A stretch of DNA of 64,000 nt from Maylandia zebra. Lineage: Eukaryota; Chordata; Actinopteri; Cichliformes; Cichlidae. Shown in pieces: positions 9,638 to 64,000 of the stretch (its first letter is position 1; each line of letters opens with the position of its first letter). A program made the position numbers and the translations under genes. The DNA lies in assembly GCF_041146795.1 (NCBI RefSeq), contig NC_135187.1, positions 5,157,556 through 5,221,555 on the forward strand. Direction: 5' to 3'. The notes under the pieces are model-generated. The model saw nothing but the letters and a program-made list of their open reading frames with translations, made no database searches and was not told the origin of the DNA.

Positions 9638-11243
9638 CAGTGGGGCAAAAAAGTATTTAGTCAGCCACCGATTGTGCAAGTTCCCCCACTTAAAATGATG
9701 ACAGAGGTCAGTAATTTGCACCAGAGGTACACTTCAACTGTGAGAGACAGAATGTGAAAAAAAAAAATCCATGAATCCACATGGTAGGATTTGTAAAGAA
9801 TTTATTCGTAAATTAGGGTGGAAAATAAGTATTTGGTCACCTCAAACTAGGAAAATCTCTGGCTCCCACAGACCTGTAACGTCTTCTGTAAGAAGCTTTT
9901 CTGTCCCCCACTCGTTACCTGTATGAATGGCACCTGTTTGAACTCATCATCTGTATAAAAGACACCTGTCCACAGCCTCAAACAGTCAGACTCCAAACTC
10001 CGCCATGGCCAAGACAAAAGAGCTTTCGAAGGACACCAGGAAAAGTATTGTAGACCTGCACCAGACTGGGAAGAGTGAATCTACAATAGGCAAGCAGCTT
10101 GGTGTGAAGAAATCAACTGTGGGAGCAATCATCAGAAAATGGAAGACATACAAGACCACTGATAATCTCCCTCGATCTGGGGCTCCACGCAAGATCTCAT
10201 CCCGTGGGGTCAAAATGATCATGAGAACGGTGAGCAAAGATCCCAGAACCACACGGGGGGACCTGGTGAATGACCTGCAGAGAGCTGGGACCAAAGTAAC
10301 AAAGGTCACCATCAGTAACACACTACAACGGCAGGGAATCAAATCCCGCAGTGCCAGACGTGTTCCGCTGCTGAAGCCAGCGCATGTCCAGGCCCGTCTG
10401 AAGTTTGCCAGAGAGCACATGGATGATACAGCAGAGGATTGGGAGAATGTCATGTGGTCAGATGAAACCAAAGTAGAACTTTTTGGTATAAACTCAACTC
10501 GTCGTGTTTGGAGGAAGAAGAATACTGAGTTGCATCCCAAGAACACCATACCTACTGTGAAGCATGGGGGTGGAAACATCATGCTATGGGGCTGTTTTTC
10601 TGCCAAGGGGACAGGACGACTGATCCGTGTTAAGGACAGAATGAATGGGGCCATGTATCGTGAGATTTTGAGCCAAAACCTCCTTCCATCAGTGAGAACT
10701 TTGAAGATGAAACGAGGCTGGGTCTTCCAACATGACAATGATCCAAAACACACCGCCCGGGCAACAAAGGAGTGGCTCCGTAAGAAGCATTTGAAAGTCC
10801 TGGAGTGGCCTAGCCAGTCTCCAGACCTCAACCCCATAGAAAATCTGTGGCGGGAGTTGAAAGTCCGTGTTGCTCGGCGACAGCCCCAAAACATCACTGC
10901 TCTCGAGAAGATCTGCATGGAGTAATGGGCCAAAATACCAGCTACTGTGTGTGCAAACCTGGTAAAGACCTATAGTAAACGTTTGACCTCTGTTATTGCC
11001 AACAAAGGTTATGTTACAAAGTATTGAGTTGTATTTTTGTTATTGACCAAATACTTATTTTCCACCCTGATTTACGAATAAATTCTTTACAAATCCTACC
11101 ATGTGGATTCATGGATTTTTTTTTCACATTCTGTCTCTCACAGTTGAAGTGTACCTCTGGTGCAAATTACTGACCTCTGTCATCATTTTAGGTGGGGGAA
11201 CTTGCACAATCGGTGGCTGACTAAATACTTTTTTGCCTCACTG
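9638..11243 (+). mobile_element. Tc1/mariner element copy 1 (1606 bp)
   Basis: Long terminal inverted repeats of about 200 bp begin CAGTGGGGC at the left and end GCCTCACTG at the right. TA dinucleotides at 9636-9637 and 11244-11245 are the target duplication. The internal region holds one transposase reading frame on the plus strand. It is nearly identical to the copy at 26392-27992, so both are young. The right outermost terminus differs from the left by a substitution or two, whereas copy 2 has matching termini. Confidence 0.95.
10005..11027 (+). pseudogene. Tc1 transposase (DD34E), truncated by a nonsense mutation
   Basis: This is a cut-and-paste transposase that binds the terminal repeats and catalyses excision and TA-targeted integration. 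The ATG at 10005 opens [12 protein letters not shown]. An N-terminal paired-like helix-turn-helix pair covers roughly residues 1-110. Catalytic residues are visible: Asp in WSDETK, Asp in QHDNDPKHT, and Glu in NPIENLW 35 positions later (34 between), the DD34E signature. The frame stops at 10923-10925 (TAA), where copy 2 has GAA. The original stop is at 11025-11027, so the protein is 306 instead of 340 residues and lacks the last 34. Catalytic residues are retained, so residual activity cannot be excluded, but the tail is conserved in copy 2 and its loss is probably damaging. Confidence 0.93.
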
Positions 11244-26391: not shown

Positions 26392-27992
26392 CAGTGGGGC
26401 ATAAAAGTATTTAGTCAGCCACCGATTGTGCAAGTTCCCCCACCTAAAATGATGACAGAGGTCAGTAATTTGCACCAGAGGTACACTTCAACTGTGAGAG
26501 ACAGAATGTGAAAAAAAATCCATGAATCCACATGGTAGGATTTGTAAAGAATTTATTCGTAAATCAGGGTGGAAAATAAGTATTTGGTCAATAACAAAAA
26601 TACAACTCAATACTTTGTAACATAACCTTTGTTGGCAATAACAGAGGTCAAACGTTTACTATAGGTCTTTACCAGGTTTGCACACACAGTAGCTGGTATT
26701 TTGGCCCATTCCTCCATGCAGATCTTCTCGAGAGCAGTGATGTTTTGGGGCTGTCGCCGAGCAACACGGACTTTCAACTCCCGCCACAGATTTTCTATGG
26801 GGTTGAGGTCTGGAGACTGGCTAGGCCACTCCAGGACTTTCAAATGCTTCTTACGGAGCCACTCCTTTGTTGCCCGGGCGGTGTGTTTTGGATCATTGTC
26901 ATGTTGGAAGACCCAGCCTCGTTTCATCTTCAAAGTTCTCACTGATGGAAGGAGGTTTTGACTCAAAATCTCCCGATACATGGCCCCATTCATTCTGTCC
27001 TTAACACGGATCAGTCGTCCTGTCCCCTTGGCAGAAAAACAGCCCCATAGCATGATGTTTCCACCCCCATGCTTCAGTAGGTATGGTGTTCTTGGGATGC
27101 AACTCAGTATTCTTCTTCCTCCAAACACGACGAGTTGAGTTTATACCAAAAAGTTCTACTTTGGTTTCATCTGACCACATGACATTCTCCCAATCCTCTG
27201 CTGTATCATCCATGTGCTCTCTGGCAAACTTCAGACGGGCCTGGACATGCACTGGCTTCAGCAGCGGAACACGTCTGGCACTGCGGGATTTGATTCCCTG
27301 CCGTTGTAGTGTGTTACTGATGGTGACCTTTGTTACTTTGGTCCCAGCTCTCTGCAGGTCATTCACCAGGTCCCCCCGTGTGGTTCTGGGATCTTTGCTC
27401 ACCGTTCTCATGATCATTTTGACCCCACGGGATGAGATCTTGCGTGGAGCCCCAGATCGAGGGAGATTATCAGTGGTCTTGTATGTCTTCCATTTTCTGA
27501 TGATTGCTCCCACAGTTGATTTTTTCACACCAAGCTGCTTGCCTATTGTAGATTCACTCTTCCCAGTCTGGTGCAGGTCTACAATACTTTTCCTGGTGTC
27601 CTTCGAAAGCTCTTTGGTCTTGGCCATGGCGGAGTTTGGAGTCTGACTGTTTGAGGCTGTGGACAGGTGTCTTTTATACAGATGATGAGTTCAAACAGGT
27701 GCCATTCATACAGGTAACGAGTGGGGGACAGAAAAGCGTCTTACAGAAGACGTTACAGGTCTGTGAGAGCCAGAGATTTTCCATGTTTGAGGTTACCAAA
27801 TACTTATTTTCCACCCTAATTTATGAATAAATTCTTTACAAATCCTACCATGTGGATTCATGGATTTTTTTTTCACATTCTGTCTCTCACAGTTGAAGTG
27901 TACCTCTGGTGCAAATTACTGACCTCTGTCATCATTTTAGGTGGGGGAACTTGCACAATCGGTGGCTGACTAAATACTTTTATGCCCCACTG
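26392..27992 (-). mobile_element. Tc1/mariner element copy 2 (1601 bp), in intron 1 of gene 1
   Basis: The terminal inverted repeats CAGTGGGGCATAAAAGTAT and its exact complement are intact. TA duplications lie at 26390-26391 and 27993-27994. It is oriented antisense to the GPCR gene and splits a roughly 9.6-kb intron. It is nearly identical to copy 1 throughout, including the long terminal repeats. Confidence 0.96.
26607..27627 (-). pseudogene. Tc1 transposase with a 2-bp frameshift
   Basis: The start codon is at 27627-27625 and the normal stop at 26609-26607. The N-terminal helix-turn-helix region and the first catalytic Asp (WSDETK) are in one frame. At about 27076-27077 two bases present in copy 1 (the GT of CCTACTGTGAAGC) are missing, shifting the frame just after NTIPT. 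The remainder, with the QHDNDPKHT Asp and NPIENLW Glu and the full C-terminus ending in VTKY, is intact in the other frame. The 1021-bp length against the expected 1023 agrees with one 2-bp deletion. It is a single-lesion pseudogene whose lesion differs from that of copy 1. Confidence 0.94.
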
Positions 27993-29826: not shown

Positions 29827-32818
29827 ATGTTTCCAAATACTTCTCTGCCCACCCACACACTCAAGTCTTCTAAGGATGACCAGGCGGTGGACATTGATGC
29901 CATCATGGACAATGTCAGCATCATCCTGTACACACTGACTGTTGTACTCGGCATCACAGGGAACTCTGTGGTGATCTGGGTGGCTGGATTCAAACTTAAG
30001 GTAGATATGGAGTGTGTCATATATTTGAAATAACTTAATATTTACAGTTTAATATTTTACAACTCCCTATAAGACTGCAGGTTTTCACTGCAGGTAACAT
30101 GTATGTGTAACATTGCATGTGACAAATAAAGGCGGGATTTATTGATTGATTGATAAGCGTCAGTAACATTTGGGTAATAACATATTGGGATAGAAGACAG
30201 CACAGATATGTGACTTTGTCAGTGTCACAGCACCAACACAGGAAACCCAAAGCAACTTAAAATAAAAGAAAACAACAACAACAATTTGTCCCCTGCTTGT
30301 AACTTTTGCAGGGAGCTGTAACCGGGATAATTCACTTGAGTATAGGGGCTCTTTTCTTTGTTACATAACATAAGATTCACACTCATATAAACACTAGCTG
30401 TTTTTGCTAATGCTAAAACTTTGTAAGATGATTTAAAATGTGGGATTATTCATGAAAAGTGATACAAATTAAAAATGCAATTCTAGTCAACATTTTATCT
30501 CACGCAATCCTTTTTTAATTTAACCTTCAAAATAGGCAAAACTCGCGTATAAGGAAATCAACTTAAGTCCTAAAAAGCTTATGTCCAAGTGTGTCATAGC
30601 TAAAGAAATAAGAGTTTGGCAAAGGGTTAACAAGAGAAGTAATGATCAGTGAGCAGAAACTTGGCTCTGTGAAGAGAAAGAGGAATAATAATGTCTTGTC
30701 TTGTCTTGAGAGTGTCGATGGAGAAGTACAGAGACAGTCAGAAGTAGTTGTTCTGTGTCTTTGTGGATTTAGACAAAGCATATGATAGGTTCCATGAGAG
30801 GAACTGTGATACTGTATGAGGAAGTCAGGAATGGTAGAGAAGTATGTGAGGGTGGTGCAGGACATGACGACATGAGGACAGTGAGATGGTGGTAGGATGT
30901 GTGATAAGAGTTACAGATGGGTTGAAGGCATCAGGAATCTGGGCCCTTTTTGTTTGAAGTAGTGCTGGACAGGCTGAAAGATGAAACCAGGCAAGAGTCT
31001 CTGTGGACTGTGATGTTTGCAAATAACATTGTGATCATAGTGAGAGCAAGTGAGCCTGGAGAGGTGGAGGTATGCTCTGGACAGATGTGGAATGAAAGTC
31101 AGTAAAATCAAGACCAAATACATGTGTGTGAAACTGATGGACATGCAGGGAGTCGAGATATTTGAACTCATCTGCCTTCACTACCTGTGTTCAACTATCC
31201 AAACTGACAAGAAAAAACAGAGAAGAAGAAAGTAGCAAGAGTGAAAGAGGAGATTTACAAGAGAAGGTTTAGTGAGACATGCTATGATTAATGGTTTGAA
31301 TACAGTGACATTAACGAAAAGACAGGAGGCTGAGTGAAGAGCTGAAGATGCCAGGATTTTTATTGGGAGTGATCAGAATGAACAAGATTAAAAATTAGTA
31401 CATCAGAGAAACAGCTGGGGCTGAGCAGTTTGGAGGCAAAGGGGGAAAAGATGAGGAAAAGAGGAAACCCACCAAGGAGGCGAATCCTAAAGGAATCCGT
31501 GAATCTGTAAGAAGAAGAAATGAGGAATTACTCACAACACATTATGCCTGACTGGGGATTTGTTGCTTGTAAAAGTGGATAGTGTGGCTAAATTTATATA
31601 TAAATATATGTTTAACTAACAGTTTTGAATGTGGTCAGTCCACTGAGTAGTCAGTTGTTATTGTTGCAAACATATCGATCCCCTCTACCTGACCCAATAG
31701 GACATGGTTAACACTTTTCTCAAGGTACTTACTTTACCCTGCAGGACAGCACTAGTAATGGGTGGTTACCAGGTTTAAGGTCAAACTGTTTCCAGGTAAA
31801 AACAGCAGATGAGGGCGCGTACTAGTGATGCACAAATGATAATGGCAATTCAGTGCCATCAAAATCTTTGATTTTCTTTATGTTCCTGTTATCATTGTTG
31901 TTTTATTTTCTTCTTCATCCACAGCCAAAGGTCACCAACGTGTGGTTGGTGAATCTGGCGATAGCAGACCTGATCTTCTGCTTTACACGAGTTTTCTCTC
32001 TCACTAAGAAGCTCTTCTTTGAGCACTGGCCTTTTGGTCTCTTCGTCTGCAAGTTCAATGGCTTCTTCAAATATGCCAACATGTTCTGCTCTGTCTTCCT
32101 GCTGGCTGTGATCAGTCTGGATCGAGTGCTCTGCATCTGGCAGCCCATCTTCACAAAGCGTCGACGCACCATGTGGGTAGCGAGGATGGTGGCGGTCTGC
32201 GTCTGGATCGCAGCGATCCTCTTCAGCATTCCCTACTTCATCCATCGCCAAGTCTACCTGGGCAAGAAGAACCTAAGTAAGTGCTCTGTGGATCCGAAGG
32301 AGAAGGCAGAGGGGTACAACAGCACCAAAGCTGCTCTCTACTCCATCCGCTTCCTGTGTGGCTTCATATTTCCCTTCATGGTGATTCTGGTCTGTTATAT
32401 CTTGGCCGCTGTAGGAATCAGACGCACCCGCCTCTCAGGGAAATCCCGCCCCCTGCGTATACTCGCAAGTTTGGTCATTGCCTTCTTCCTGTGTTGGGCA
32501 CCTTACCATTGCCTCTTACTGGTGAAGATGGTGGACAATAAAAATGCAGTGGTGAAAATCTGGTACCCTGTAGCAAAGGGTGTTGCCTACTTTAACAGCT
32601 GTGTGAACCCATTGTTGTACTTCTGCATGGGGCTAGATGTGAGGGGGCGATTCAGGCAGAGTCTGATGGGTGTTTACAAAAGAGCTCTGGCAGACGATGT
32701 TGATGGACAGACATCTCACTCCAACGATCGCTCTTTGGATGAAACCTCGGTGTCAAAGCACAGCACTCTCATAGCGGAGGGATCAGGTCTGACAGCAATG
32801 GGTGTGGCTAAAGTTTAA
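29827..32818 (+). CDS. Chemoattractant-type GPCR 1 (FPR/CMKLR1-like), two coding exons
   Basis: Exons are 29827-30000 and 31925-32818, joined in phase 0 (donor AAG/GTAGAT, acceptor CCACAG/CCAAAG), giving 355 residues. The 5' exon begins at an acceptor (CTTTTCCAG, 29819), with A at -3 of the ATG. It is a seven-transmembrane receptor of the plasma membrane. The N-terminus has an N-glycosylation site (NTS). GN at 45-46 lies in TM1, LAIAD with Asp73 in TM2, Cys100 pairs with Cys178 in loop 2, DRV (124-126) replaces DRY, CWAP (248-251) is in TM6 and NPLLY (286-290) in TM7. RFLCGF and FFLCWAPYH and the C-terminal style resemble chemerin and formyl-peptide receptors, which couple to Gi in leukocytes. 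The exact orthologue is unclear, so no symbol is given. The tail is Ser/Thr-containing. An AATAAA at 33271-33276 could end the transcript. Confidence 0.9.
30075..30155 (+). repeat. LINE 3' tail with (TTGA)n
   Basis: 'cattgcatgtgacaaataaagg...' followed by ATTGATTGATTGAT is a typical LINE end, inside intron 2 of gene 1. Confidence 0.5.
30690..31520 (+). pseudogene. LINE reverse transcriptase remnant in GPCR gene 1 intron 2
   Basis: A decayed non-LTR retrotransposon RT. Motif A is visible as FVDLDKAYDR (about 30758-30790), then VVQD around 30855. The catalytic box that should read FADD is now FANNIVI (around 31015-31035). MKVSKIKTKYMCV follows at about 31090-31130, and near 31361-31480 remains of the C-terminal region are seen. 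Frameshifts and stops interrupt it. Both catalytic Asp codons have become Asn, so it is dead. The clade is not certain. Confidence 0.75.
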
Positions 32819-46458: not shown

Positions 46459-48402
46459 ATGTTTCCTAATGCCTCGCTGCTCACCGACACTCTCAAACCT
46501 GAGGATGACCAGGCAACTACTGTGGGCATCAATTCCATAGTGCACAATGTCACCATCGTCCTCTTAATGCTCACCATTGTGCTCGGCATCACAGGGAACT
46601 CCATGGTGATCTGGGTGGCTGGCTTCAAACTTAAGGTGGATATAAAAAAAACAAAAGTATAATATGTTTCAAATGCCTTCTGAGCTTGCCATTTGTCTTT
46701 TTAACAAAAGCTCAGTGAAAACAACAACTTGGGGTTAATATCTTGGCTAAAGAGATTTGGCATGCAGACTGGAGCAGCCAGGGATCAAACCACCTCCTGA
46801 TCTGCGGCTAACCTTATCTTTCAGGTTTAGGTATAAAAAATACTTGTTTGGGGTTAAGAATGGACCAAAATACATCCTTTTACAGTAAAAAGTAACAGGT
46901 TGACTAACTTAGGATGACATTTGCAACCACAGATCATTTTTAACTAAGTTGAAGATGTTTCCTGTATCATACGAGAAGCTTATTGAAGAAGCAGCTTTTC
47001 AGAGGTGATGCAAACACATACCAACAGGGACTAGAAAGAGAGAGCACATTTGTCCCATACAGACTCCTCTTCATTGGCTCGCTGTTAAATCCAGAACCTA
47101 CTTTAAAATCCTTCTTCTTGAATACAAGATCTTGAATAAGACCTTGAAAAATCTCGATTTTCAAGATTGCTTATATAAGCATACAGTTAGCGTTTGATCA
47201 GGTGACTCTGAATCCTCATTTGCTTCACAGGAAGCCTCCAGGCTTAGTCTGGCTGTCCTATCTTATAAAACTAGCATTACCTGAGAGCATTAATCTGTAG
47301 CTTTCGCAAAGCAGACACTCCGGTGTGCAATGGCTTCCTTGTGGTTGAGTTCTATACATGCAGGTTTTTGAACTGACACACAAGAAATTTAACTTCATAT
47401 GTGGTAATAATACCTAAACCTTTGAAGTGATGTTATCTGCTTGTGGTTATATGTTTTTTTAATGCACAGCTTTTGACATAAAGAAATCTCCATAGATAAC
47501 ATGATCCCAGTCAGGTTACTTACTATTTTCTAGTTTTTTACTCTCTTCTTTTTTCCATCTTTTATTTTCTTCTACGTCAACAGCTGACGATCACCAATGT
47601 GTGGCTGGTGAATTTGGCGATAGCAGACCTGATCTTCTGCTTCACACGAATCTTCGCCCTCACTCGGCTGTTCCTGTCAGACCACTGGCCTTTTGGCCTC
47701 TTCCTCTGCAAGTTCTATGGCTTCTTCAAATACACCAACATGTTCTGCTCTGTGTTCCTGCTGGCTGTGATCAGTCTGGATCGAGTGCTCTGCATCTGGC
47801 AGCCTGTCCTCACAAAGCGTCGACGCACCCTGTGGACAGCGAGGGTGATAGCAGTCTGCGTCTGGATTGCAGCGATCCTCTTCAGCATTCCCTACTTCAT
47901 CCATCGACAAACTTACATAGACGACAACAACCTGACTAAATGTTCTATGAACCCAAAAAAGATGGAAGAGGCTCACAACAGCACCAAAGCTGCTCTCTAT
48001 TCCATCCGTTTCTTGTGTGGCTTCATATTTCCCTTCATGGTCATTCTCATCTGTTACATCCTGGCTGGTGTGGGCATCAGACGTACCCGTTTGGTGGCAA
48101 AGTCCCGGTCTCTGCGTATACTAGCATGTTTGGTCATTGCTTTCTTCCTGTGCTGGGCACCTTATCACTGCCTCCAACTTGTGAGAATGATCAATGGTGA
48201 TAATGCTGTGCTGAAAATCTGGTTTACTGTAGCACAGAGCATTGCCTTCTTTAACAGCTGTGTGAACCCACTGCTTTACTTTTGCATGGGGCTAAAAATG
48301 AAGCATGGGCTTAAACAAGGTCTGATGGGAGTTTATACGAGGGCTCTGGCAGATGATACAGGTGGCCAAATTACTCAGTGCACTGATCAGTCTTTGGATT
48401 AA
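46459..48402 (+). CDS. Chemoattractant-type GPCR 2 (FPR/CMKLR1-like), two coding exons, short tail
   Basis: Exons are 46459-46635 and 47584-48402, joined in phase 0 (AAG/GTGGAT; CAACAG/CTGACG), giving 331 residues. The structure and features match gene 1: MFPN start with an N-glycosylation site, GN in TM1, LAIAD, the loop 2 disulphide, D-R-V at residues 125-127, FFLCWAPYH in TM6 and NPLLY in TM7. Identity is greatest in TM2-TM7 and lowest at the N-terminus and loop 2, where ligands bind in this family. A TAA after QSLD ends the protein about 25 residues before the gene 1 stop; the sequence beyond is still alignable with the gene 1 tail. An AATAAA lies at 48462-48467, 60 bp after the stop. A Gi-coupled leukocyte receptor role is inferred from family resemblance only. 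Confidence 0.9.
46725..46825 (-). repeat. Degenerate SINE fragment
   Basis: 'ttaatatcttggctaaagag', 'ggcatgcag', 'agggatcaaaccacc' and 'ctgatctgcggctaacc' correspond in order to 33080-33170 of the SINE after gene 1. It lies in intron 2 of gene 2. Confidence 0.6.
46985..47170 (+). pseudogene. LINE (L2/Rex1-like) RT C-terminal remnant
   Basis: The segment near 47028-47140 (ctagaaagagagagcacatt, ctcttcattggctcgctgtt, aatccttcttcttgaatac) matches the 'REHITPVL-SLHWLPV' type conserved end of L2/Rex1 RTs. It is short and broken, in intron 2 of gene 2. Confidence 0.5.
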
Positions 48403-55505: not shown

Positions 55506-56702
55506 TAGTGATGGGCAGATGAAGCTTCCTGAAGCACTGAAGCTTTTCATCCAATTGGTTCACCCCAGCGCAAAGCGTCTTGAAGCTTCATTTGCTCTAG
55601 TAGGACATCTACAGGACGTAAAAATATTAGTTGGCATGAATTTGACGGGTGTGGCCTTTCGCACACAGCCTGTAAATGTCAACAACAAAAGGAGTGTGTA
55701 AAACATGTATATCGTAGTGATGGCAGTATACTGTGTATATTTATAGTGGCAGTATGGAAAATGATCATTTGGAAATGCTTAAAATGGAAATGATCATTTA
55801 CTGTGAGGTGTGGTTGTGGTGTGGACAGTGGTTGTGCTTTTGTAACGTTGAGGTATGGACAGCTACACACTGAGGCTTTGAGCCTCAGTCCTGCCTGTTC
55901 ACATTTTATTCTGTAAAAACTAAATTTTCACTGCTTTTATGACCTTTTTAGTGGGGAGAACATAGCTAGGATTTAATGATTTATCAAATCTTTTAAATCC
56001 TTTGTCCTCCACAATGCTAAATGGCTGGGAGTCCTCAATCACCATGCTGACCAGGTCTTCATCTATTTGAGATTGTTCTCCTGAGGAAAGACAACAAAAA
56101 CAAAGCGCTAATATAAATATCACACACGTAACTTATTACAGTTGTATAATATTGTTATATCATTTAGTTACATTACTGCATGCTATATTATCATTTGATG
56201 GCTCACCTGGTCTTGCTCCACAATCGGTGTTCCCCTTATTCTCATGCAAAGCTCTGTAGTGCCTAAGCATGGATGAGGTGTTGTTGTTATATCCCAGCTC
56301 CCTGGCACATAGCAAACACTTCACCTTGTACAAAAGTAAAGGCGCTTAACATAAATTGTATTGCACCATCAGTATTATGAAAATACATCTTCTGTAGAAA
56401 TTTACATACCTTGTTGGGAGATATAAGATCAAAATGTTCCCACACAGGGGAGGACATCCTCCTCTTCTTAGCTGGCTCCATTCTCTCCTGACTTTCTCTC
56501 CTCACTCTCATAAACCTCCAAACTGTCTCCAAACTCACTAACTGCAACTCTCCATCAAACACCCACATTTTGAATGAAGTCTGAGGGGTTTATATTGCTG
56601 TCAAAGGTTCGGCAAAGTTCGAACCACTTCCTGAACCAGTCACGTGGTACAGCCGGGCAACGAGGCTTCGGACGTCATTTTCAGCTCCTCCCATAAATGA
56701 AG
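55506..56702 (-). mobile_element. hAT element copy 2, cut by a Ty3/gypsy insertion
   Basis: The plus-strand left terminus TAGTGATGGGCAGATGAAGC equals the inverted right end of copy 1 (36452-37729). The two copies align along their length until 56702, where the gypsy LTR begins within the sequence matching 'cttcatttatgggagg' of copy 1 (about 36538-36553). The target duplication would be CCGGCAAC at 55498-55505; its partner is off-window. Confidence 0.88.
55920..56481 (-). CDS. BED-zinc-finger fragment of hAT transposase, spliced frame open
   Basis: Exons on the minus strand are 56481-56410, 56324-56207 and 56080-55920, with GT/AG junctions identical in place to copy 1. Joined, the frame stays open for 116 residues. 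The BED finger has the aromatic WEHF at the start, then CLLC and HYRALH (C-X2-C...H-X4-H). Then comes a linker (IDEDLVSMVIEDSQPF, KGFKRF) that in full-length hAT proteins precedes the catalytic domain; that domain is absent. Full transposases bind and mobilise terminal repeats. A BED-only product could bind DNA without cutting, but expression is unproven. Confidence 0.6.
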
Positions 56703-58282
56703 TGTAGCGCCTCTACTCAGGACCAGTACACTCTCACGTCAAATAGAGACCCTAGACATCTTTCTAGGTTCAGGAGGAGGTTTTGTTTTGGGGACTCACA
56801 AAAGGAGTTGGCTTGGAAGTGAATAACTGGGACCTTTATTGCCTCAGTACCATTTATATACATATACAACACAATAACCCAAATTGCACACTAATAGTGC
56901 ATTTTAAAGGTGAATACATGTAAAACAAAACAAAATAAAGACATTTAAATGGAAGATTTATACTGAACAGTATCAGAGCTCTTGGGAATGAATGAAACAG
57001 ATTAAAGTGTTCCTGTTGTGAAGTTTGAATTGTCCAGTCTGAATTGTCCTTTAAAGTCGTTGAAAACCCAAACAGGTGTACTGTAGGGGAATTGTCAGTG
57101 TGCAAACCCTATTATCCGGGTAGGAAAAGTAGTGCATAGGGCTTATCTGTAATCCAGGGTTGCTTGAATCAGTTTCTCAGGCAAATCCCACAATCCGATC
57201 GCATGGCTGGCCACACCATTTCACGATCATCCAGGATCTCATTTGGGCTGTTCTCGCCGTCAGTGGTTCTCCAGAATCCTTCTAGTAGTTCAAAAAAACC
57301 AATCTACACAAACAGTGCAGAACAATCAATTTCTTTTCCCATTTTGTGTTCTTAACATGAGCTCATTAACTTCTTTTCCAAATGTATTAATCACAAATGG
57401 CATTCCCTTTAGCTTTACCAAGTTACAAGAGTTACAGTAACTTGTTTGTACCAGTATCAACAATTTTATCAAAATTATATCACAACAAAGAACATCAGCA
57501 GCTTAAACAGTAATGTAAACAGTCATAGCAATGAAAGTGACATTCATCCTTAAGGCTTACAAGAAAATGTAACTTAATTCAGTGCAAATACTATTAAACT
57601 TGAAATATGCTCATATCTATTAAGACATAACCATTCTAATATAAACAGAGCTATTGCTTCTACTTGAATACCTCCCCGATCGGAATATGGCTTCAGCGGG
57701 GTGGGGTGGCTAACAGCTATTAGCAGCTAGCATCGCATCGCATCTAGCATCGGCATCGTTTAGCTCAAAGCATTCAACACTTATAACACACTGTAAAGAA
57801 CAACAGGAGAAGTGAAACAACACGCCAGATTCTCATAGCTCCCGATTGGTTTTTGTTCAAAGGTTTCTGAGCTGAATCGGCTAGTGAAATACATTATCTA
57901 ACTTAACAGGTAGCTAACGAAAGCACGTGACTCACCGGGATTTTCAGACACAAATAACTTGACAGACGTTATTCCCTTTGTGGTCAGAGTTCGGGGCCTA
58001 ATAAAAGAGTACCTTATTAGCATTTATACGTAAAACAATCTGGTCTCATTAACCGGGTTGCAGTATTGCATACCAAGATACTTTTTCCATGCGCTCCGAC
58101 ACGTACTTGACCGCCATCAGAGGGAAGATCTCACAGGAAGAGAGAGGTAATACTTCCTGCGCACTAGACGCAAGGTCGTCAGAACACAAGACTGCATCAC
58201 AGCGCCCCCTTGTGACAATAACAGGCTATAGCCTTAGATTACAAAAAGGGATTTTGCAGCCCTGTATTTCACATGGGTTACA
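56703..58282 (-). repeat. 3' LTR of the gypsy element (1580 bp)
   Basis: On the minus strand it begins TGTAACCC (58282) and ends GGCGCTACA (56703). An AATAAA lies at 56840-56835, about 130 bp before the 3' end. It is long for a vertebrate gypsy LTR. The 4-5 bp before it on the plus strand (TGAAG) is the presumed target duplication; the partner is off-window. Confidence 0.85.
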
Positions 58283-61200
58283 CCCTCCCCCTTTGACCCA
58301 GCATGAGCCCCTTCATGCGTCACGCTGTGGTCTACAGATGAACTCTCATAGTCACCTATTGTATAAAGTGCTTGGTTAAAGCTCTCTATGAGGCTCTGCG
58401 CAAAGGAAATTAAGGGATTTCCCAACTCAGGATAATGGAAGCGCCTTGGTGGTCGACGTGTCCTTTCTGACTTACGAACATGGTCATTTTTTTCTCCACT
58501 GTCAACAGTTTCCTTATGCTCCAGAGCTACCTCAGGGGTTTGTGGGTTCAGATCAATGGTTTCCGTAGCTATAGGAGCCTCTACATCAATGGACGGTACA
58601 TCAATGCTGTCTTCGGCCACAGCTGATTTTTGATTAGTCATAGTTGGTAAAGTTACATCGTCTTCAGTAGGGTGTTGCTCAGCCACAACATCTGGCTCCT
58701 CTCCTTCAGCTACTTCAGGAGGTACCCCTACAGGCTCTGCAGGCAGCAAAGGGGAGCTGCCTCTGCAAGGCTCATTCTGAGGCTGAGGGTTTACACAGTC
58801 TGCTGGCGTAGCTGGTATACAACTACCCTCCGGTACTGTTTTTCCGGTTTGCTGTCGTCTCTTCGGGATTTCAAACACCTGAACCAACTTTCCAGGAATG
58901 ACAGAAGACTGCCTAGGATAGACAGGTGAGTCGTCTTCAGATTCTGATTGCTCCTCCAGTAACAGAGGCTGACTGCGCCTCGTTCTTGGCCTGCAACTCT
59001 TTGGCTTGACCTGGTCAACTTCCTCAGCTTCAGATAAGTCACCACAAGGGAGTAAGAGATCCCTGTGAAGAGTTCGAATAGGACCATCTCCATTCATAGG
59101 CTGTACAACATACACAGGTAGGTCTACCATCTTTTCCACCACTCTGTACATGGTTGACTCCCACTTATCTGCAAGTTTGTGTTTATTCCGAAGTCGCAGG
59201 TTCCGCACTAGCACTTGATCACCTTTCTCCAAAGTTGACTCCCTGACAGTTTTGTCAAAACGGCGTTTATTCCGTTCAGCAACCTTCTGAGAGTTTTTGG
59301 CAGCGATCTGATAGCTCTCTTGAAGGCGAGCCTTCAGAGCTCTCACATACTGAGAGTGAGATGTAGGAGAGCCATCTTTAACTGGCAGGCAGAATGCAAT
59401 ATCCACGGGAAGCCTCGGCTGGCGACCAAACATTAACTCGTATGGGCTAAACCCAGTGGTCTCGTTCTTGGTGCAATTATAGGCGTGAGTTAGTGGTTTC
59501 ACATAATCGCGCCAATGAGTTTTCTCTTTGTCTTGTAGAGTTCCTAACATGCCAAGAAGAGTTCGGTTGAACCGTTCAACTGGGTTTCCCCGTGGATGAT
59601 AAGGACTGGTGCGCACCTTCGTGATACCAGCTAGGGCACAGAGCTCTTTAATGAGTTGGGACTCAAAATCCCTGCCCTGATCACTAAGCAGGCGCTCAGG
59701 AAAACCATAATGCACCAGAAACTGCTCCCAAAGACACTTCGCAACTGTTGTAGCCTTTTGGTCTTTTGTTGGCATAGCAACAGCGTATTTGGTGAAATGA
59801 TCAGTTATGACCAGAATGTCTTTGGTGTTGTGACTGTCAGGCTCCAAGGATAAATAGTCCATGCATACCAGTTCCATGGGACGGGTTGTTTGGATACTCA
59901 CAAGAGGTGCTGCTCTTTCAGGAAGAGTCTTTCTTCTAACACAACGTCCGCAAGACTTAATCTTTCTCTCTACATCAGTTGCCATTTTAGGCCAATAAAA
60001 TCTTGACCTAACCAAGTCGAGGGTTCTTTCCAAACCCATATGCCCCATGTCGTCATGAAGGCAAGTGAGAATGGTGGACCTTAAAGACTCAGGGACGACA
60101 AGCTGAAAGGTGACATTTTCACCTGATTTGCGGGTTCTGTAGAGGAGACCATTTTTCAGTTCCAAACGTTTCCACTCTTTGAGCATTAGTTTAAGCTCTA
60201 AGGATGCAGAGTTAGGATTGGAATTTGCTTCACCTCCATTTTCTAACATGTTGACCACATACCCAATAATTGGGTCAGACCTCTGATGCTGTTGGAGTTC
60301 TACCTCACTATAGGTAGGTATGACAGAACAACCTAATGTTCCATCATCTGCGTAGACGTCTGGCACCGCATCGGTATGTAGAGCAAGGGACTCTACCAAA
60401 GTGATAGAAGGTAGGCTATTGTCAGATTCACCTAAGAGATGACGGTGGCACAAGACACTGAATGTGTCAGCTGTCACATCTTGTCTGTTGGGAGATGAAG
60501 AGAGATGATGGGAAGCGAATTGTTTCATTCGCTCTTTTTCTTCAAGAGAAGCATAGTCATCATCCACAGTATCATGTGGCCGCCTAGAGAGGCCATCTGC
60601 ATCTTGATTGCTCTTACCAGCACGATACTTAATATTAAAGTCGAAGGTGGAGAGAGCGGCCAACCAGCGGTAGCTGGCAGCATCGAGCTTGGCTGACTTC
60701 AAAACATAGGTCAATGGGTTGTTGTCCGTTAAAACCGTGAATGTGTTCCCGTAGAGATAATCTTGGAACTTCTCTACAATGGACCACTTTAATGCAAGAA
60801 ATTCCAGTTTATGAGCTGGATACCGCTTTTCACTGGGTGAAAGTCCTCTACTTGCGTAGGCAATAACCCTCACTTCACCATCCTGTTCTTGATACAAGGC
60901 TGCCCCTAACCCAGAGGTGCTCGCATCAGTATGGAGGACGTATGGTAATTTTGGGTTAGCATATCCAAGCACTGGAGCTGATGTCAGTTTCTCTATGATT
61001 ACCTCAAAAGCTTCCTGACAAGCAGGTGTCCAACGGCTGGAAAGAGGCTCTTTAGGGTTCAAGTATCCGCTAGGACCGGGTGTCACCTTTCTGCCCTTCC
61101 TGTATGGTGGGTAGCCTTTGGTAAGATCATTCAGGGGTTTGACAATTTTTGAATAGTCCTTCACAAACCGTCGATAGTACCCTGCAAAGCCTAGGAAAGA

Positions 61201-63003
61201 CTTGAGGTCACTGAGCGTCTGGGGTCTTGGCCAGGTTTTGAGAGCTCTGACCTTCTCAGGATCGGTCTCTACACCTTTGGTAGACACGATGTGTCCTAGG
61301 TATCGCACAGAACTTTGGAAGAAGGAGCACTTTTTGGGAGAAAGTTTCAACCCATATTCTCTCAGTTGCTGAAGGACACGTAGAAGCCTGGTTTCATGTT
61401 CCTCCAAAGTGCTGGAGAACACGATGATGTCATCTATGAACACCAGAACTTCTTTCAGATTGAGGCTGCCCATACACCGTTCCATTAAGCGCTGGAAGGT
61501 GCTGGGAGCGTTGGTGATCCCCTGGGGCATACGGTTAAACTCGTAAAATCCCAAGGGGCACACAAAAGCTGTCTTGGGCTTATCACATTCCTCCATCTCA
61601 ATCTGGTAATAACCAGACTTGAGATCCATTACTGAAAACCATTTGGATCCAGCAAGGGCTGAGAAAGCCTCTTCAAGGTTTGGAAGTGCGTACGCATCTC
61701 GTATTGTTAACGCATTGAGCTTACGATAATCAATACAAAGACGGACCTCTCCATTCTTCTTTTTAACCACCACAATCGGTGAAGCATAAGGGGACTCTGA
61801 TTCACGGATTACTCCTGCATCAAGGAGTGCTTGCAAGTGCTTCCTCACAGCTTCATAATCATTTGGGTGGATTGGCCTGGACTTTTGCTTAAAGGGTGCT
61901 TCGTCCTTTAAGTTTATGTGATGTGTGACTTTAGATACATGTCCAAGATCCAAATCATGCTGGGCAAAAACATCAGCATAGGCACTTAGACGCTGGGTAA
62001 CCCTCTCTTTCCACTCCTGCGGGAGGGGAGAATTGCCAAAGTCAAATGTCAAATCTGGGTGAGCAGGTTCATCAACTGGCTGTGCAGTAACATTACAACA
62101 TTTCACAGTGTCATCATTTTTGGTTGAAATGGGTGATTCTTCATATATCTTTGCAGGACTATGGAGCTCTGCAATGACACATCTAGAAGGCAGTGTTACG
62201 TCATGCTCAGTTTCATTTCTCACCCATATAGGTAACCTATGAGGATGCTTCTTGGGCAAAGTGACAAGACAGCACTCCACAAAAATTCCCCCTGGTAAGG
62301 TGGATGTCGTTGGCTGTTCAACAATGGCACATTCACCAGCACTGCTGGATCTGACACAGCCTTCAAGGAGGACCCTCCCTTGAGCTGGTACTACGTGTTG
62401 CACCTTGCCCTTAAGAGTTACAAAGCCATCGTTTCCGGCTAGGTTTATCTCTCTCCTGACCTTGAGTGTACGGAGGATCTGCCTGTAGCCATAGACCGAC
62501 GACAAATCATTGGGATCTTTACCTTGACAATATTCGTCGTACAGAACATCAAGTGCATTTGTCCCAATCAGCACAGGCAAGTCACAGTTAGAGCGTAAGT
62601 CAGGTACTACTAAAGCAAGGCTAGAAACCTCAGGCTCAGTTTCAATAAAGCTTTTTGGAAACTTAAGGCTGATGGGTATGTATCCCAAGTAAGGAACATT
62701 TTGGCCACTAGCAGCCTCAACATCCAGGCCACTGATAGGCTGAATGGGATGTTCTGAAAGATTGGTGTTGTAAAATGAAGCGGACACTGTGGTCACTTGA
62801 GACCCAGTGTCAAGGAGACAACTGCAATTGACTCCCGACACGGTAACATTTGCTGTACATTTCTGTCCTACAAGTCCCTTGGGTAACCTAATCTGGGGTC
62901 GTGCTGCACGAGAGAGAGAAGATACTTTGCTCTGAGGCTCCGGTTTGGGACGTTCATGATTACTTTCAGTTCCTGGTAGTCCCTCCCCAGAAACTGATTT
63001 TAG
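58234..63003 (-). CDS. pol: Ty3/gypsy Pol: protease, RT, RNase H, integrase
   Basis: The frame is open from the frameshift site at 63003 to the stop at 58234 (1589 codons) and has no own ATG near its start, consistent with synthesis as Gag-Pol. Counting from a GTG at 62841: protease DTGS at 11-14. RT has MDLKSGYYQ (Asp406) and VFIDD (Asp470-471). RNase H has HTDAS (Asp639), Glu680 and LTDNN (Asp706). Integrase has a zinc-binding H/H...CGRC part (about 929-967) and catalytic Asp995, Asp1054 (SDQGRD) and Glu1090 (NPVERF), a DD35E spacing. A GPY/F-like and acidic-proline tail ends the protein, whose last codons lie inside the LTR. It copies RNA to DNA in cytoplasmic particles and integrates it. 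The gypsy assignment is secure; the clade is not. Confidence 0.96.
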   Translation of the reverse strand, partial: LKSVSGEGLPGTESNHERPKPEPQSKVSSLSRAARPQIRLPKGLVGQKCTANVTVSGVNCSCLLDTGSQVTTVSASFYNTNLSEHPIQPISGLDVEAASGQNVPYLGYIPISLKFPKSFIETEPEVSSLALVVPDLRSNCDLPVLIGTNALDVLYDEYCQGKDPNDLSSVYGYRQILRTLKVRREINLAGNDGFVTLKGKVQHVVPAQGRVLLEGCVRSSSAGECAIVEQPTTSTLPGGIFVECCLVTLPKKHPHRLPIWVRNETEHDVTLPSRCVIAELHSPAKIYEESPISTKNDDTVKCCNVTAQPVDEPAHPDLTFDFGNSPLPQEWKERVTQRLSAYADVFAQHDLDLGHVSKVTHHINLKDEAPFKQKSRPIHPNDYEAVRKHLQALLDAGVIRESESPYASPIVVVKKKNGEVRLCIDYRKLNALTIRDAYALPNLEEAFSALAGSKWFSVMDLKSGYYQIEMEECDKPKTAFVCPLGFYEFNRMPQGITNAPSTFQRLMERCMGSLNLKEVLVFIDDIIVFSSTLEEHETRLLRVLQQLREYGLKLSPKKCSFFQSSVRYLGHIVSTKGVETDPEKVRALKTWPRPQTLSDLKSFLGFAGYYRRFVKDYSKIVKPLNDLTKGYPPYRKGRKVTPGPSGYLNPKEPLSSRWTPACQEAFEVIIEKLTSAPVLGYANPKLPYVLHTDASTSGLGAALYQEQDGEVRVIAYASRGLSPSEKRYPAHKLEFLALKWSIVEKFQDYLYGNTFTVLTDNNPLTYVLKSAKLDAASYRWLAALSTFDFNIKYRAGKSNQDADGLSRRPHDTVDDDYASLEEKERMKQFASHHLSSSPNRQDVTADTFSVLCHRHLLGESDNSLPSITLVESLALHTDAVPDVYADDGTLGCSVIPTYSEVELQQHQRSDPIIGYVVNMLENGGEANSNPNSASLELKLMLKEWKRLELKNGLLYRTRKSGENVTFQLVVPESLRSTILTCLHDDMGHMGLERTLDLVRSRFYWPKMATDVERKIKSCGRCVRRKTLPERAAPLVSIQTTRPMELVCMDYLSLEPDSHNTKDILVITDHFTKYAVAMPTKDQKATTVAKCLWEQFLVHYGFPERLLSDQGRDFESQLIKELCALAGITKVRTSPYHPRGNPVERFNRTLLGMLGTLQDKEKTHWRDYVKPLTHAYNCTKNETTGFSPYELMFGRQPRLPVDIAFCLPVKDGSPTSHSQYVRALKARLQESYQIAAKNSQKVAERNKRRFDKTVRESTLEKGDQVLVRNLRLRNKHKLADKWESTMYRVVEKMVDLPVYVVQPMNGDGPIRTLHRDLLLPCGDLSEAEEVDQVKPKSCRPRTRRSQPLLLEEQSESEDDSPVYPRQSSVIPGKLVQVFEIPKRRQQTGKTVPEGSCIPATPADCVNPQPQNEPCRGSSPLLPAEPVGVPPEVAEGEEPDVVAEQHPTEDDVTLPTMTNQKSAVAEDSIDVPSIDVEAPIATETIDLNPQTPEVALEHKETVDSGEKNDHVRKSERTRRPPRRFHYPELGNPLISFAQSLIESFNQALYTIGDYESSSVDHSVTHEGAHAGSKGEGVTHVKYRAAKSLFVI
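58283..58294 (-). promoter_or_regulatory. Polypurine tract of the gypsy element
   Basis: AAAGGGGGAGGG on the minus strand abuts the LTR start. It would prime plus-strand DNA synthesis. It overlaps codons of pol. Confidence 0.85.
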
Positions 63004-63009
63004 TTTAAA
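62947..63009 (-). promoter_or_regulatory. -1 programmed ribosomal frameshift signal between gag and pol
   Basis: On the minus strand the heptamer T-TTA-AAC (63009-63003) is in the gag zero frame, immediately before the gag stop (63002-63000). After 6 nt comes CAGTTTCTGG (62996-62987), loop GGAGGGACTA (62986-62977) and CCAGGAACTG (62976-62967), a 10-bp stem with one G-U pair. GGGAC in the loop (62983-62979) can pair with GTCCC at 62951-62947, forming an H-type pseudoknot. The pol frame is exactly -1 to gag. Confidence 0.85.
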
Positions 63010-64000
63010 GCTGACATATTCTGTTCCTCCCAGACTTGTAGTTTTTGGTTGAACTCCTTACGTTTCATTTCAACTAGTTCAGGGTTTGGTTCATTGCTGC
63101 AAGAGGGAGCAATATGACCATCCTCGCCGCACCTGAAGCAGTACCATGGGCGTGGCTTCTTAGTGGGCTTAGTCTCACTTGGGTCAGATTTCTCTTTAGG
63201 AAGAATCTTGAACTTAGGTTTGGTTTTCTTATTTGGCTTGTCAGAGTTCTGGCTTGAACTGTCAATAGCTGATGCTTTCAGTGAAGCCACTTGGGCTTGT
63301 AGCTTTGCAAGTTTCCTTTCTAACTTATGTGCATCAAAAGGCACTAGCCTATCATTAACAGCTGATACGTCTGTATCATCAGTGACATACTCTCCTACTT
63401 CAAGGGAGTTCAAATGTGCCTTAGGTTTAGAAATGCCTAAGTGCTGTTTCATTCGGCTGGACTTTGCCGCTTGCCGGTCCTCCTCAGTACGTAGCATGAG
63501 GAGCAACTCTGGAAATGAAGGTGGCTTGTCCTTCTTCTGCTCAAGCTGCAAGGTTGTGATCAAGCTGTTGTTCCAGCAACCTCTACAAAACTGTTTAAGC
63601 AGTTGGCGATCTGAATCATTTGTAGTGATGCCACCTCTTTTAATGACTTTACTCAGGGTTATCTGCAACCGCTGTAAATAGGCAGAAGGCTTTTCACCTG
63701 AGTTCTGGTTTGTGCTCAGGAATTTGGCAAAAAGCTCATCCCCATCATCAACAGTACCATACGCTGAGTCAAGAAGGCTGAGATAGTCATGGGGAGAAGC
63801 GTTATGACCAAGGTGCTTTACAATGTTAGCAGCTGGTGGAAGAAGGCTCTCAACTATTTTCCTTACCATATGTTTGTCAGATATGGTACAATCTATGAGG
63901 TGGAATTCAACATTGTTGCGCCACGTATCATAATCAGCTTCGAAAGTAGAGCAAGGGGTTTTCCCCGAGAAGGGCCTGAGCTTTGCATGACCTTGAGAAG
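63000..64000 (-). CDS. gag: Ty3/gypsy Gag with CCHC zinc knuckle, N-terminus off-window
   Basis: The frame is open from the right edge to TAA at 63002-63000. An internal ATG at 63869 is probably not the start, because coding-type sequence (including DYDTWRNNVEFHL) continues upstream to the edge. The capsid-like region with VRKIVESLLPPAA, SAYGTVDDGDELF and GEKPSAYLQRLQ resembles the PNMA family of gypsy-derived host proteins. A Lys/Ser-rich linker follows, then CFRCGEDGHIAPSC (C-X2-C-X4-H-X4-C, about 63150-63100) that binds RNA. Gag builds the particle and packages RNA. It ends on the slippery heptamer that feeds ribosomes into pol. Confidence 0.93.
   Translation of the reverse strand, partial: SQGHAKLRPFSGKTPCSTFEADYDTWRNNVEFHLIDCTISDKHMVRKIVESLLPPAANIVKHLGHNASPHDYLSLLDSAYGTVDDGDELFAKFLSTNQNSGEKPSAYLQRLQITLSKVIKRGGITTNDSDRQLLKQFCRGCWNNSLITTLQLEQKKDKPPSFPELLLMLRTEEDRQAAKSSRMKQHLGISKPKAHLNSLEVGEYVTDDTDVSAVNDRLVPFDAHKLERKLAKLQAQVASLKASAIDSSSQNSDKPNKKTKPKFKILPKEKSDPSETKPTKKPRPWYCFRCGEDGHIAPSCSNEPNPELVEMKRKEFNQKLQVWEEQNMSALN

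Follow-up and report, generated by a model that had tools for sequence, protein, structure and literature searches.

How is a pol gene translated when it lies out of frame with the gag gene that precedes it? The question is raised by a retroelement in the 64,000-nucleotide stretch of Maylandia zebra DNA analyzed here (the window), in which gag ends and pol begins in two different reading frames of the minus strand. Sequence comparison argues, with very little doubt on our part, that a programmed −1 ribosomal frameshift signal lies at this junction, in a young PNMA-gag Ty3/gypsy element. We accept the signal because the comparative evidence, namely the slip site, the frames, and the stems found in relatives, settles the question.

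The 3′ part of gag (63000..63998, minus strand) runs off the window and encodes a PNMA capsid domain (Pfam PF14893, E 4.6e-23, above cut-off) as well as a CCHC knuckle motif that can be read directly in the sequence. The Pfam zf-CCHC and RRM_1 matches are below cut-off (E 0.0034 and 0.037), and gag also matches a PNMA2 chain in the PDB (E 9.7e-15). The start of gag lies beyond the window; the full gene has 565 codons from the first ATG (L005). The pol open frame (58234..63057, minus strand), at −1 to gag, contains a D-T-G protease motif that starts near codon 64 from the slip site, together with reverse transcriptase, RNase H, and integrase. Pieces of pol match the Pfam reverse transcriptase, RNase H, integrase zinc-binding, and integrase core domains, and two protease matches (E 0.015 and 0.031) both fall below cut-off. 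The order of reverse transcriptase, RNase H, and integrase, in combination with LTRs, is that of Ty3/gypsy elements (Metaviridae). The original prediction was therefore right to call this a Ty3/gypsy element, and the PF14893 match sharpens the assignment: as judged from its domains, the element is a Ty3/gypsy retrotransposon with a predicted PNMA-type gag.

The 3′ LTR comprises at least 56702..57372 (minus strand) and may extend past the upper edge given. Because this LTR and the 5′ LTR, which is outside the window, do not differ at any of the 671 bases compared (the extent of the stretch fetched), the insertion is probably young. The 301-base junction matches four places in the genome. A second copy of the element lies ≈91 kb off on the same contig and in the same orientation (contig coordinates of the two copies, 5305559-5314345 and 5214265-5223051); over the 661 bases searched, its LTRs match those of the window element with 100% identity, and they have the same spacing. 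Given these identical LTRs and this spacing, the two copies may reflect a duplication of the region, or else two recent insertions. Elsewhere in the window, there are two Tc1/Sleeping Beauty-type transposase frames, at 10005-10925 on the plus strand (Pfam HTH_SB, HTH_Tnp_Tc3_2, and DDE_3) and at 27001-27627 on the minus strand (HTH_SB and HTH_Tnp_Tc3_2, no DDE_3), and two plus-strand open frames that match the 7-transmembrane receptor family 7tm_1 (31853-32818 and 47599-48402).

The junction occupies 62947-63009 on the minus strand, exactly as first proposed. The slippery heptamer TTTAAAC (63003..63009) stands in the register T-TTA-AAC with respect to gag, from which the pol frame is reached as TTT-AAA, and relatives share this arrangement. 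Gag is open as far as the TAA stop at 63000..63002, which adjoins the heptamer and likewise recurs in relatives. The frame of pol overlaps gag at −1 and is open from 63057 to 58234, which amounts to 1607 codons from stop to stop, in agreement with the ≈1.6 thousand first reported. Downstream is a predicted H-type pseudoknot. Folding and covariation define its stem 1, with the 5′ arm at 62987..62997 and the 3′ arm at 62966..62976 (both minus strand); the stem has 11 bp, including one G-U, and encloses a 10-nt loop. Stem 2 is formed by GGGAC inside that loop (62979..62983, minus strand) and GTCCC past a 14-nt linker (62947..62951, minus strand), on the evidence of relatives and nucleotide constraint. 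The spacer between the heptamer and stem 1 is 5 nt (the stop plus two bases), or 6 nt if the stem is counted as 10 bp. The original prediction thus holds for the heptamer and its register, the adjoining stop, the frame of pol, the complementary loop and downstream segments, and the 10-bp stem with a 10-nt loop and 6-nt spacer, since 10 versus 11 bp is a matter of how the end pair is counted.

The check by RNA folding that had been proposed for this junction gave a divided answer. A 43-nt fold is strongly supported (z −4.56, 0 of 300 shuffles equally stable), whereas the 81-nt fold gives weak evidence (z −1.56, 16 of 200 shuffles equally stable). The 81-nt fold of a single sequence is unconvincing alone, and the case therefore rests on comparison. 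A scan of the genome (962 Mb, 63 contigs) with a reduced pattern of heptamer, TRR, spacing, and GGGRC returned 128 occurrences versus 13 for the reversed control. No Rfam family matches the junction, and no relatives were found in the viral contigs scanned.

If the two frames reflect a shift during translation, then relatives in the same genome should be arranged alike. Searches with gag and pol gave at least 131 and at least 150 matches, respectively. We used 121 of the 131 gag rows, with 10 N-terminal pieces of split matches left out, and all 150 pol rows, and counted as a gag/pol pair any partners within −60 to 250 nt of one another. This procedure yielded 117 pairs and left the remaining rows partnerless. 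In 116 of the 117, pol is at −1. Copies with gag and pol in one frame, which had been named as evidence that would speak against a frameshift, thus come to a single case, L088. The frame of L088 is broken just after the junction, since its −1 frame closes 68 nt past this point, and yet pol remains open over 1552 codons. Together with L049 and L115, L088 illustrates that damaged copies do occur, as they would if the two frames arose from decay or assembly error in a dead copy. A dead copy is nonetheless at odds with the recurrence of the same layout in nearly every pair, the long open frames, and the identical LTRs, and we consider the chance that decay or misassembly explains the junction to be negligible.

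The slip site and the stop were followed through 98 distinct places, of which 96 gave a slip site; L050 and L123 yielded no junction. The script sought four heptamer forms, which had earlier been seen beside the stop without use of a pattern, and within this set of forms the 96 places comprise TTTAAAC (69), GTTAAAC (11), GTCAAAC (10), and GGATTTT (6). U_UUA_AAC ranks among the heptamers on which mammalian ribosomes slip most, and equine arteritis virus is known to have the variant G_UU(A) (PMC5009743). The same source lists the heptamer as the IBV site, which bears out the earlier description of it as a strong −1 site in viral systems (PMC5009743). On a gag/pol tree with 6 of 14 inner branches open, GTTAAAC takes two changes and GTCAAAC one; its 17 rows consist of 16 representatives, degenerate L049 being left out, and the added L110. 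A stop triplet directly follows the heptamer in 93 of the 96 places (TAG in 52, TAA in 23, and TGA in 18). The three places that do without it, L118-L120, form a sub-family in which TTTAAAC is followed by TGG. The gag stop of these three lies 15 nt past the heptamer and begins at the last base of the stem 1 5′ arm.

The directly adjoining triplet is the gag stop in 92 of the 96 places, L049 being degenerate, and a pseudoknot placed after a stop is also the layout of stop-codon readthrough stimulated by such a structure. Readthrough nevertheless fails here because it would continue in frame 0, where pol does not lie and where translation of the 17 representatives described below would run into another stop 4 to 67 codons on. 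It also leaves the conserved heptamer unexplained, and we consider it extremely unlikely.

Gag proteins from elsewhere provide a further view of the slip site, which predicts that gag should end in Leu-Asn. We examined 120 related gags among 1014 related proteins. Among the matches listed, 90 of the 120 have an exact Leu-Asn C terminus, for which the chance expected from composition is ≈0.4%, and 109 have Leu-Asn at the end or no more than two residues from it. Among these same matches listed, four of the 120 end in Ser-Asn or Asp-Phe, and seven show none of these endings. When kinship among the matches listed is taken into account, the 101 gags of at least 500 residues fall into 50 word-sharing clusters, and 47 of the first members show Leu-Asn. 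The closest gag among the matches listed, P0002 (97% identical), is assigned to Oreochromis niloticus in one source and to Mustela putorius (ferret) in another; the ferret label may be contamination or a mislabel. Because the stop as a rule directly follows the heptamer in this genome and commonly does so in others, the data suggest that this stop has a role, although three places do without it.

A different account of the two frames would have pol translated on its own, through re-initiation or internal initiation past the gag stop, with the stems as generic structure only. The position of the first ATG in the pol frame bears on this idea. In 9 of the 17 representatives it falls within codons 8-34, ahead of the protease motif, where a separate start could serve. 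In the window element, however, the first such ATG is at codon 460, far past the protease motif, which makes re-initiation unlikely there. It also follows the protease motif in L025, L027, L057, and L099 and comes just before it in L076 (66 versus 70), and L108 and L118 have no pol-frame ATG in the 127 and 100 codons read. As separate initiation would also leave the conservation of the heptamer without explanation, we regard it as very unlikely.

We found 32 junction variants and took on 31, leaving out L115, which has no stems. Grouped by eye, the 31 variants are represented by 17 sequences with a mean pairwise identity of 63% (highest 83%) over 46 bases. Across these representatives, the core of stem 1 pairs in 147 of 153 cells, versus at most 84 when the registers are slid by 1-6. 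Changes on both sides are seen at 9 of the 11 pairs, and the 37 both-side cells compare with 10.7 in shuffles, none of 500 being as high. With all 16 pairs counted, 91.5% of cells pair, and the covariation score is 0.409 versus 0.224. The number of further pair types is not exceptional among the 17 representatives (56 of 500 shuffles). Beyond the representatives, at least 8 of the 9 core pairs of stem 1 form in 95 of the 96 places.

Stem 2 behaves differently. It pairs fully in all 17 representatives, with no covariation among them: four pairs are invariant and one alternates between A-U and G-U. It consists of GGGAC or GGGGC with GTCCC in 94 of the 96 places, the exceptions being L095, with GTACC in the 3′ arm, and L115, in which it is absent. 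The covariation that was to be expected of both stems is thus present in stem 1 and lacking in stem 2, for which nucleotide constraint stands in its place; the pseudoknot itself is assigned from the pairing of the arms. A pattern search over a short range was used to find the arms of stem 2, and the elements share ancestry; these conservation counts should therefore not be taken as independent trials. Folding z averages −3.2 but is weak in L028 (−0.27), and L013, when folded without a pseudoknot, takes up a different hairpin as its lowest-energy structure.

These patterns also bear on whether the conservation mirrors the protein sequence of pol, with no RNA signal at all. Conserved pol codons do include this region's Gly codon and some of the stem. 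The codon before this Gly, however, has G as its third base in all 17 representatives, with E, A, V, M, or R as the residue; the xGT codon of stem 2 encodes R, S, or C across representatives; and the Pro of stem 2 is encoded by CCC in 17 of 17, compared with 101 of 374 in downstream pol. As the nucleotides of stem 2 are fixed where pol residues vary, this comparison points to selection on the RNA rather than on the protein. With the both-side changes in stem 1 added, conservation of the protein alone is scarcely credible as an explanation.

One sub-family departs from the standard slip site. Ten places (L108, L110-L115, L117, L122, and L124) carry G_TCA_AAC, on which re-pairing of the P-site tRNA at −1 should be poor. 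The stop is kept in all 10 and both stems in nine, and pol is open for 405 to 1555 codons. In the remaining member, L115, the stems are lost and the junction is shorter than those of its sisters, with gag (535 codons) and pol (1031 codons) still open. Loss of the heptamer and stems from copies with open frames had been put forward as evidence against the signal; the heptamer and stems are kept in nearly all of the 96 places, and L115 is a case in which the stems have gone. Among the matches listed, the gags P0038 and P0104 have a Ser-Asn C terminus.

A programmed −1 frameshift at this junction would operate as follows. Most ribosomes would terminate at the TAA after TTTAAAC and release Gag. 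In a minority, the pseudoknot, which starts ≈5-6 nt downstream, would hold the ribosome while TTA occupies the P site and AAC the A site. The ribosomes so held would slip to TTT and AAA, enter the pol frame, and produce Gag-Pol by reading through protease, reverse transcriptase, RNase H, and integrase. We infer the slip itself, together with its efficiency and the ratio of Gag to Gag-Pol.

Such signals have precedents. The mammalian PNMA3 and PNMA5 genes use the heptamer GGGAAAC. Like the fish element, they combine a PNMA-type gag gene with a classical heptamer and an H-type pseudoknot (PMC5009743); unlike it, they belong to the host and encode no pol domain beyond the shift (PMC5009743, PMC11011659). 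Shifting in PNMA3 reaches ≈20% (PMC5009743), and the relevance of the PNMA3/5 frameshift has been called unclear (PMC11011659). A layout with two frames and pol at −1 is also common among animal LTR retroelements and occurs in PEG10. PEG10 differs in its sushi-type gag lineage, whereas the gag of the fish element is of the PNMA type and its stop adjoins the heptamer. In IBV, stem 1 is long, at ≈11 bp, as in the fish element. The coronavirus-type signal of IBV, U_UUA_AAC with an H-type pseudoknot, shares the same heptamer (PMC5009743). IBV is, however, an unrelated virus, and the resemblance is one of mechanism rather than membership. The original prediction that so complete a signal would be unusual was overstated, given that a 2003 survey found pol at −1 in 28 of 51 animal retroelements, many with classical heptamers (PMC5009743).

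The PNMA domain architecture has been placed in ancestral metaviruses (PMC11011659), and 71 PNMA domains have been counted among 1119 gag genes in zebrafish (PMC8672886). The word "frameshift" is absent from the main text of PMC8672886, PMC3257199, and PMC3424704. Among the matches listed from openly licensed PMC papers, we recognized none that describes a frameshift signal shared across PNMA-gag elements of fish and supported by covariation. The mechanism itself is already textbook; what this analysis contributes is the comparative case for one conserved slip-stop-pseudoknot block in the PNMA-gag elements of this fish. The 32 variants in one genome, along with the gags of other fish, constitute a set of natural mutants for the slip site, the stop, and the pseudoknot. 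It is possible, although we find it somewhat doubtful, that the heptamer, stop, and pseudoknot are one ancient, inherited RNA cassette of the PNMA-gag lineage that has persisted while the fish elements diverged deeply, with the joined stop as a working part and the mammalian PNMA3 and PNMA5 signals as its last traces. If so, the G_TCA_AAC sub-family would show that the cassette works with little re-pairing in the P site. The findings place a predicted pol-producing frameshift in the kind of element that gave rise to the PNMA genes.
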